DNA of 64,000 nt from Candidatus Saccharimonadota bacterium. GTDB lineage: Bacteria > Patescibacteriota > Saccharimonadia > Saccharimonadales > Saccharimonadaceae. How positions within the stretch are numbered: position 1 is the first letter of the stretch; the number at the start of each line of letters is the position of its first letter. The translations under genes and the position numbers were made by a program. This document shows positions 648-1,718 of the stretch, piece by piece. Below the pieces are notes generated by a model, which worked only from the letters and a program-made list of their open reading frames with translations, searched no databases and was not told the DNA's origin. Where the stretch lies: NCBI GenBank assembly GCA_030537075.1, contig JAUNOS010000001.1:94079-158078 (forward strand), in the 5' to 3' direction.

Positions 648-967
648 TGGCTCCGGCAGCTGGGCTCGAACCAGCGACCTATTGGTTACACTTTACCTTA
701 TACTTTCGCACAAGCGTGGACTATCTCATCATCCGTTTATAAACGGAGCAGGGCGCTATTTGGATGAGTATTGTTGGGCTCACATCCTAGTCTCTGAACC
801 TTCCGAAGTCCTACTGTCCATAGAGACAATATCCCAACTTCGGCTTGGCTGCGGATTACCATAGTTATACACCGTAGGCTTCCCGCAATTCACCCTGTTT
901 TTCATAACAAGTTACCCTGTTACGCTGCCTTTGACAGCCAACCGCTCTACCACTGAGCTATGCCGGA
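648..967 (-). tRNA. tRNA-Asn(GUU) interrupted by a group I intron
   Basis: The exons are 934-967 (34 bases) and 648-688 (41 bases, CCA encoded). When joined they give a complete cloverleaf: acceptor TCCGGCA/TGCCGGA, D arm GCTC/GAGC, T arm CTGGTTCGAGCCCAG, and an anticodon loop CTGTTAA with anticodon GUU. The first exon ends after U35 and the second supplies U36. The exon boundary follows from a 5-pair P1 helix with the usual U-G at the splice site. Splicing two bases earlier would give a UGU loop, but that lacks P1 support. Confidence 0.85.
689..933 (-). other. Group I intron in the tRNA-Asn anticodon loop
   Basis: This 245-base intron has no reading frame. Core elements in minus-strand order: P (AATTGCGGGAA, 880-890), Q (AATCCGCAGCC, 847-857), R (GTTCAGAGACTA, about 788-799) and S (GATAGTCC, about 719-726). 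P4 can form from TGCGG/CCGCA and P7 from GACTA/TAGTC. P1 pairs exon GCUGU with the internal guide GCAGC, with U-G at the splice site, and the last intron base is G, as expected for omega-G. The R and S motifs resemble those of the tRNA introns of subgroup IC3; the subgroup is my estimate. Confidence 0.85.
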
Positions 968-1017: not shown

Positions 1018-1353
1018 TTAGTCGGTATGTAAAGTCCGCACGCCGAGTTCAATCTCTCGGTGACAATTAGCGCACACCATCACACACTTATCAAGTTCCT
1101 TCTGAATTTTTTCCCATGATCGCGTCATGCCTTTTTGACTAATGGCAAACTCCTTTGTCGAAGGATCAACATGGTGAAAATCCAATACACCAACGTGCTT
1201 ACTGTATCCGCAACACATACATTTTCCACCCATATATGCAACCGCTCGACGCTTTAATTCACGGCGACGACGGGCCACCGCCGCAATGAGATATTCACGC
1301 CGATCAGCATAAGTACGCGTATCTTTTGCTACCATACTAATATGGTATATCAC
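1018..1353 (-). CDS. Small HNH endonuclease-like protein
   Basis: This 111-residue protein has a zinc-ribbon HNH fold signature: C45-x2-C48, LDFHHVD with H60 and H61, and C94-x2-C97-H98. The N terminus is basic (residues 28-37 rich in Arg and Lys), suiting DNA binding. The GTG start at 1353 overlaps the TGA stop of the upstream wHTH gene, which suggests translational coupling; an ATG at 1335 is an alternative start. The gene lies immediately upstream of the intron-bearing tRNA on the same strand. Small HNH proteins of this kind occur as homing nucleases and in phage or restriction contexts. A link to intron mobility is possible, but the gene is not inside the intron. Confidence 0.75.
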   Translation of the reverse strand: MIYHISMVAKDTRTYADRREYLIAAVARRRRELKRRAVAYMGGKCMCCGYSKHVGVLDFHHVDPSTKEFAISQKGMTRSWEKIQKELDKCVMVCANCHREIELGVRTLHTD

Positions 1354-1718
1354 CCTGGTGTATCCGTCAAGTTTGGCTTTACAATCTCCAGCGCCTGCCG
1401 CAGCACCTCCACCTCTTGCTGCTGTGCCTCATCGGTCGCGCCCTCGCGTCGGGCGATTTCCCGCTCCAGCTCATGCCACCACGGACGATCATTAGCTGCT
1501 GTCGGCCCATTACCATTCATCACCTCCAGCGAACGTATAGCTCCATCTTTCTTTATAAGGTGGCCGCTCGCCACGAGATTGTCAATATGTTTTGCCACCG
1601 TCGAAACTGACTTATAGCCTAGCGCTCGCATAATTTCACGATATGTCGGGCTATAGCCATTGCCCTTTATAAACCCATCGATGAAATCAAGCAAGGTTTT
1701 TTGCTTCTTGGTAAGCAT
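1350..1718 (-). CDS. LexA-type winged-helix DNA-binding protein without protease domain
   Basis: Residues 1-62 match the LexA DNA-binding domain (MLTKKQKTLLDFIDGF, then GYSPTYREIMRALGY and STVAKHIDNLVASGHL). The remaining 60 residues are a charged, probably helical tail. The Ser/Lys autoprotease domain of true LexA is absent, so RecA-triggered self-cleavage is not expected. The gene overlaps the preceding membrane-protein gene by 32 bases and the HNH gene by 3 bases, forming a compact minus-strand unit. It could be a small transcription regulator; its targets cannot be seen here. Full-length LexA is about 200 residues, this protein 122. Confidence 0.8.
   Translation of the reverse strand: MLTKKQKTLLDFIDGFIKGNGYSPTYREIMRALGYKSVSTVAKHIDNLVASGHLIKKDGAIRSLEVMNGNGPTAANDRPWWHELEREIARREGATDEAQQQEVEVLRQALEIVKPNLTDTPG

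Follow-up and report, generated by a model that had tools for sequence, protein, structure and literature searches.

A group I intron inside the anticodon of the sole detected tRNA-Asn gene of a Saccharimonadaceae genome, with a flanking HNH gene as its proposed homing partner

How does a bacterium obtain its asparagine tRNA when the gene is cut within the anticodon, and how did the interrupting element come to lie there? These questions are raised by the window analysed here, a stretch of 64,000 nucleotides from a Candidatus Saccharimonadota genome, in which a tRNA-Asn(GUU) gene (positions 648-967, minus strand) is split by a group I intron between U35 and U36. An earlier note had already proposed a tRNA-Asn(GUU) interrupted at this point, and its coordinates and intron length of 245 nt are correct; the strand, which it left unstated, is minus. 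The 5' exon of 34 nt (934..967, minus) ends in CUGU, corresponding to C32 U33 G34 U35, and pairs with the 3' exon in the acceptor and anticodon stems. The 3' exon (648..688, minus), delimited with ARAGORN on the spliced sequence, starts with UAACC (U36 A37 A38 and onwards) and runs to the discriminator G, the CCA being encoded at 650-648 (minus). The intron itself (689..933, minus), defined by its RF00028 match, by covariation and by the empty sites of relatives, begins with CAAAGGCAGC, ends with AAAGUG, has its omega-G at 689 and contains no homing-endonuclease ORF.

The reading of the gene depends on where it is cut. No tRNA was detected by ARAGORN in no-intron mode on the unspliced gene, and joining of the exons at U35|U36 yielded a complete tRNA-Asn(gtt). 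In intron mode, the same program labels the gene tRNA-Thr(tgt), because the sequence CUGU|...|UAA allows two cutting registers; the P1 U.G pair and the intron's last base, a G, settle the register as U35|U36. In genomes with such an intron, a standard tRNA finder would thus report tRNA-Asn as missing or add a false extra tRNA-Thr(TGT).

The Rfam model Intron_gpI (RF00028) matches positions 945-697 (minus) with 74.9 bits (E = 3.5e-17; gathering score 50), and this covariance-model match, together with the ARAGORN call on the spliced product, upholds the earlier identification. Structural support was sought in an alignment of 14 homologous introns from the same site in Saccharimonadia-type genomes. 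RNAalifold on these homologues gave 83 pairs, of which 39 show double-sided changes, while the named group I structure, including the P3 and P7 pseudoknot, was paired in 95.5% of cells, with double-sided changes at 34 pairs. These last two values were reached by none of 500 shuffles, slid controls paired in about 36-43% of cells, and the folding z-score was -3.5 relative to shuffles; the structural signal is far beyond chance. P3, P4, P5, P6, P7, P8 and P9 are each paired in 83-100% of cells, with covariation.

The P, Q, R and S core, the P1 guide and the omega-G described in the earlier note are all present, and the core covaries across the 14 homologues. P1 (924..938, minus) is formed by exon GCUGU (938-934) and the internal guide GCAGC (928-924), with a U.G pair at the 5' splice site that is kept in 14 of 14 homologues; five of the six P1 pairs are invariant, and the sixth, the last, covaries with changes on both sides. 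The guide motif GCAG also occurs in nearly all of at least 85 tRNA-Asn introns, described below. The Q element AAUUGCGGGAA (880..890, minus), identified from sequence and the RF00028 alignment, is the 5' strand of P4, which is invariant in the 14 homologues. The R element GUUCAGAGACUA (788..799, minus; sequence and RF00028) is the 5' strand of P7 and pairs in all 14 with the S element GAUAGUCC (718..725, minus; sequence, RF00028 and covariation), the 3' strand of P7 and guanosine site. The omega-G, at the intron end ...GUG|UAACC, is likewise conserved in 14 of 14.

Does this intron belong with the familiar bacterial tRNA introns, as the earlier note assumed? Its assignment to group I holds, and "the same class" is too broad in view of a covarying hairpin of P7.1 type. 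The introns of tRNA-Leu, tRNA-Ile and tRNA-Arg are of subgroup IC3, which is defined by the absence of P7.1 and P7.2 between P7 and P3, P7.1 being an IA-type feature. In the window intron, a hairpin with double-sided changes at four of four pairs (762..787, minus) sits exactly there, between the 5' strand of P7 and the 3' strand of P3; P7.1 and P7.2 are named as class features in the cited part of one review (PMC3984707). With this P7.1-like hairpin as the basis, we describe the tRNA-Asn intron as IA-like and not IC3. Among the introns that occupy this site elsewhere, viral and archaeal ones, as well as a few cellular ones, have a shorter R-S spacing of 18-47 nt.

We then compared 198 genomes of the same family, nine of which carry the tRNA-Asn intron. 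An intact tRNA-Asn was recovered by pattern in none of the nine carriers and in 127 of the 189 others (Fisher 7e-5), an exclusivity test of limited sensitivity given that the pattern missed 62 of the 189 intronless genomes. The same intron as in the window is found in G027, another member of the family, and in contig L145. Uninterrupted tRNA-Asn genes in five genomes of the same genus have exons that match those of the window up to the junction (the comparison used BLAST coordinates; a multiple alignment fitted the tRNA badly). Syntenic empty sites are marked by a conserved neighbour, a gene for a LexA-like regulator (1350..1718, minus; N-terminal match to TIGR00498 at 1.7e-14, below cut-off). 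The gap between this gene and the tRNA holds a 336-bp ORF in the window, and in genomes G141 and G125 an intact tRNA-Asn lies approximately 45 bp from the lexA-like gene, a gap so short that both the intron and the ORF must be absent.

This ORF, missed by the earlier note, is a free-standing HNH endonuclease gene encoding 111 amino acids (1018..1353, minus), which precedes the 5' end of the tRNA by 50 bp on the same strand, and is proposed here as the homing partner of the intron. Its product matches the HNH endonuclease family PHROG 2255 (1.9e-32), the Pfam HNH match being sub-threshold at 0.017, and across homologues the catalytic and zinc-binding CxxC residues H60, H61, C94, C97, H98, C45 and C48 are invariant, with N96 nearly so. 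Copies of at least 60% identity occur in five of the nine intron carriers and in none of the 189 other family genomes (Fisher 5e-8), and all five lie within a few hundred bases of tRNA-Asn. The position of the gene is not fixed, since G000, G166 and G177 have it upstream on the tRNA strand and G008 and G004 have it downstream and convergent, the G004 copy being broken by a stop codon and a contig end; the upstream arrangement recurs outside the family in G233 and G375. No HNH is found nearby in the remaining four carriers or beside many short introns elsewhere; it is therefore not needed for maintenance of the intron, and may have been lost after the intron became fixed.

More distant relatives of this HNH also occur near other tRNA genes. 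A second one, at 45%, lies between an uninterrupted tRNA-Leu(TAA) and a tRNA-Cys in the window's own genome (G000:C3:122508-122774; L021:1207-1413), and similar distant HNHs are found near other tRNA-like matches in other genomes of the family. Furthermore, group I introns of three Saccharimonadia-type loci (L238, L239 and L240) were placed in tRNA-Met(CAT) by ARAGORN, with a distant HNH relative near two of the three.

In the cited parts of two sources (PMC3984707, PMC10448857), collaborative homing denotes a free-standing endonuclease and an ORF-less intron that share one target, with the cyanophage psbA intron and its free-standing endonuclease, T3/T7-like phages and the ICP1 terminase among the cases. 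At our locus, a free-standing endonuclease gene stands beside a gene with an ORF-less intron, is linked to intron-bearing alleles and is absent at empty sites. We propose, with a probability of about 0.8, that the intron is active and is made mobile by the flanking HNH, which would cut the empty tRNA-Asn site; this reading is supported by the linkage of HNH and intron, by the empty sites of relatives and by homologues of the HNH encoded within introns at the same site. The structure predicts the two-step guanosine pathway: folding of the transcript would bring exon GCUGU and guide GCAGC together as a helix, an external guanosine would attack after U35, and the 5' exon would then attack after the omega-G and join U35 to U36, restoring the GUU anticodon. 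The intron would have arrived at the tRNA-Asn site as a mobile element. From the sequences compared, we infer that the flanking HNH would cleave tRNA-Asn genes that lack the intron, at the insertion point or close to it, and that repair from an intron-bearing copy would transfer the intron and the HNH gene together.

In order to establish how widely this site is occupied, a pattern for the tRNA-Asn 3' splice junction was searched in one genome per species and in IMG/VR, matches being accepted where the acceptor and anticodon stems matched and the 5' exon ended in CUGU. Insertion at U35|U36 was found in at least 85 contigs (at least 56 cellular and 29 viral), the cellular hosts including many Patescibacteria, Nitrospirota, Omnitrophota, Cyanobacteria and two Pacearchaeota. 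The insertion site within the tRNA-Asn anticodon, called less familiar in the earlier note, is not rare, as dozens of other lineages share it; nor is splitting of the anticodon unusual per se, the classic tRNA-Leu(UAA) intron doing the same. About 75 further pattern matches were rejected, many being other, uninterrupted tRNAs and the rest lacking a recognisable 5' exon or having other host tRNAs. Of 19 contigs scanned, 12 exceeded the Rfam threshold for Intron_gpI, among them a Pacearchaeota, two cyanobacteria, Nitrospira and several viral contigs; in those below it, assignment rests on the match of exon, guide and core motifs. Among the matches listed, all 18 cellular introns of at least 423 nt encode the same HNH family, the ORF starting 6-89 nt past the 5' splice site. 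In L066 the guide sequence follows the HNH ORF, which therefore lies in the P1 loop.

The viral examples comprise 29 IMG/VR contigs (L177-L180, L182-L185, L189-L192, L194, L196-L198, L201, L205-L209 and L212-L218) in which an insert of 192-239 nt that has the same P1 guide divides tRNA-Asn at U35|U36; several contain tRNA clusters, and in 15 of the 29 an HNH lies outside the intron within 1 kb. DNA similarity searches with the window intron and that of its Saccharibacteria relative L117 against isolated phages gave no match, and the viral tRNA-Asn introns gave short core matches only, which in the four phage records inspected fall in or between phage genes where no tRNA is annotated. Unannotated intron-core matches of this kind were seen in Vibrio phage 1.187.O (L300), Kolpuevirus (L301) and Escherichia phage VTCCBPA_211 (L302), the settings being the inside of a split terminase gene, the vicinity of a replicative helicase gene, and the space between DNA polymerase and helicase genes.

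Two Pacearchaeota contigs (L062:1884-2213 and L066:894-1388) have tRNA-Asn genes that group I introns interrupt at the same anticodon position; the P1 loop of one of these introns encodes an HNH fragment. Among the neighbouring genes are those for aIF-2 beta, which exceeds its NCBIfam cut-off, and for an arCOG04150-related archaeal KH protein; neither the genome of L062 nor that of L066 yielded an intact tRNA-Asn.

The presence of one HNH family within some introns and beside others leads to the question of how the flanking genes arose. The window intron clusters with introns of the Candidatus Saccharibacteria contigs L117 and L145, and groups (0.989) with other Saccharimonadia-type introns, some of which have an internal HNH (L233, L234 and L237). 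The introns of G008, G004 and G091, although from the same family, form a separate group close to an intron from Buchananbacteria (0.965), suggesting that this site was reached a second time. In the HNH tree, internal and flanking members are mixed and the deep branches are poorly resolved. Flanking copies turn up in no fewer than three separate groups, namely Saccharimonadia-type genomes, Kaiserbacteria (contig L164) and viral contigs. It is possible, if appreciably short of even odds, that the flanking HNH is a formerly intron-encoded gene that was moved or exchanged between P1 loop and flank (turnover of the homing endonuclease gene) and was not independently recruited. Closely related introns with the HNH inside (L233, L234, L237) or outside (window, L223, L293) are in keeping with such turnover, as is the grouping of flanking L164 and L076 with internal L120 at 98/84. 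Against this, the internal HNHs of Saccharimonadia-type genomes form their own group apart from the flanking ones, resolution of the tree is poor, and the hypothesis that all flanking HNHs share one origin was tested and not rejected (p-AU 0.142).

A broader suggestion, which we hold tentatively and would place not far below an even chance, is that U35|U36 of tRNA-Asn is a cross-domain homing site, targeted by one HNH lineage and occupied by several different group I ribozymes in Patescibacteria and further bacteria, in phage-like viruses and in DPANN archaea, with the HNH gene switching repeatedly between P1 loop and flank.

An unlikely alternative to collaborative homing is that the intron is an ordinary one, now immobile, and that the HNH is unrelated to it or lies beside it by accident, given that free-standing HNH genes are common near tRNA genes. 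The four family carriers without a close HNH would fit this explanation, as would the more distant HNH relatives elsewhere in this and related genomes, such as that at C3:122508-122774. It accords poorly, however, with the confinement of close HNH copies to carriers, where they are always adjacent, with the same HNH family inside introns at exactly this site in other phyla, and with the recurrence of flanking HNHs in at least three separate groups.

The remainder of the genome bears on whether the intron is active. The assembly comprises 810,516 bases in five contigs (not closed), is 99.75% complete and contains one group I intron. Its 44 other Rfam tRNA matches cover every amino acid except asparagine, and a degenerate pattern allowing up to two mismatches found no intact tRNA-Asn anywhere in the genome, so that neither search gave a second intact copy; the reading as a decayed pseudogene is rejected on account of the intact exons and the covariation. 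With the sole tRNA-Asn gene found interrupted, in vivo splicing would be required, provided that nothing is missing from the assembly, and the activity that the earlier note had made conditional on a single gene follows under the same proviso. That the gene is decayed or non-functional, or mis-assembled with the true tRNA-Asn absent from the assembly, is very improbable: the genome is in five contigs, but the exons make a perfect tRNA, the ribozyme core is intact, eight more family genomes have the same architecture and no intact copy, and completeness is high.

Near a contig end of this genome (G000:C5:1671-1977; L059) lie two odd extra tRNAs, a 69-nt tRNA-Leu(TAA) and one called as Phe(AAA), a pair that is possibly part of a mobile element.

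The insertion site is not claimed as new, as a 2025 preprint by Nakagawa et al., which by its title reportedly concerns group I introns at a novel tRNA site in Patescibacteria, may already describe tRNA-Asn 35/36. In the literature searched, where that preprint is known to us by title, we met with no earlier description of an HNH partner flanking a bacterial tRNA intron, of archaeal tRNA genes with group I introns (the published archaeal group I introns found being all in rRNA), or of viral contigs with an intron in tRNA-Asn. As treated in the cited part of Hausner et al. (2014; PMC3984707), bacterial group I introns of tRNA-Leu(UAA), tRNA-fMet, tRNA-Ile and tRNA-Arg resemble ours in being short, mostly ORF-less and patchily distributed ribozymes of the anticodon loop; ours differs in its host (tRNA-Asn(GUU)), its site (35/36), its P7.1 (IA-like, not IC3) and its flanking HNH. 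The collaborative homing cases named in the cited parts of PMC3984707 and PMC10448857 likewise combine an ORF-less group I intron with a free-standing endonuclease gene that adjoins the interrupted one, but are in phage genomes, whereas the present case involves a bacterial chromosome, a tRNA gene and an HNH family that is also intron-internal. Group I introns are known from DPANN archaea including Pacearchaeota, and the 39 archaeal ones that Nawrocki et al. (2018; PMC6125680) describe all interrupt rRNA genes; L062 and L066 share the Pacearchaeota hosts and differ in that their introns interrupt tRNA-Asn.

With these observations, archaeal genomes and viral contigs join the hosts in which tRNA genes contain group I introns. 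The cited part of PMC10448857 treats the origin of collaborative homing arrangements as an open question, and an HNH that is inside, beside or absent at one identical site in many genomes makes this question testable; if the site is indeed a cross-domain homing site, its occupants would be natural intermediates of composite mobile introns being built or taken apart. For the bacterium itself, the arrangement means that, provided the assembly is complete, the cell would need the ribozyme to produce its sole asparagine tRNA, and that a site within the anticodon tolerates no imprecise loss of the intron.
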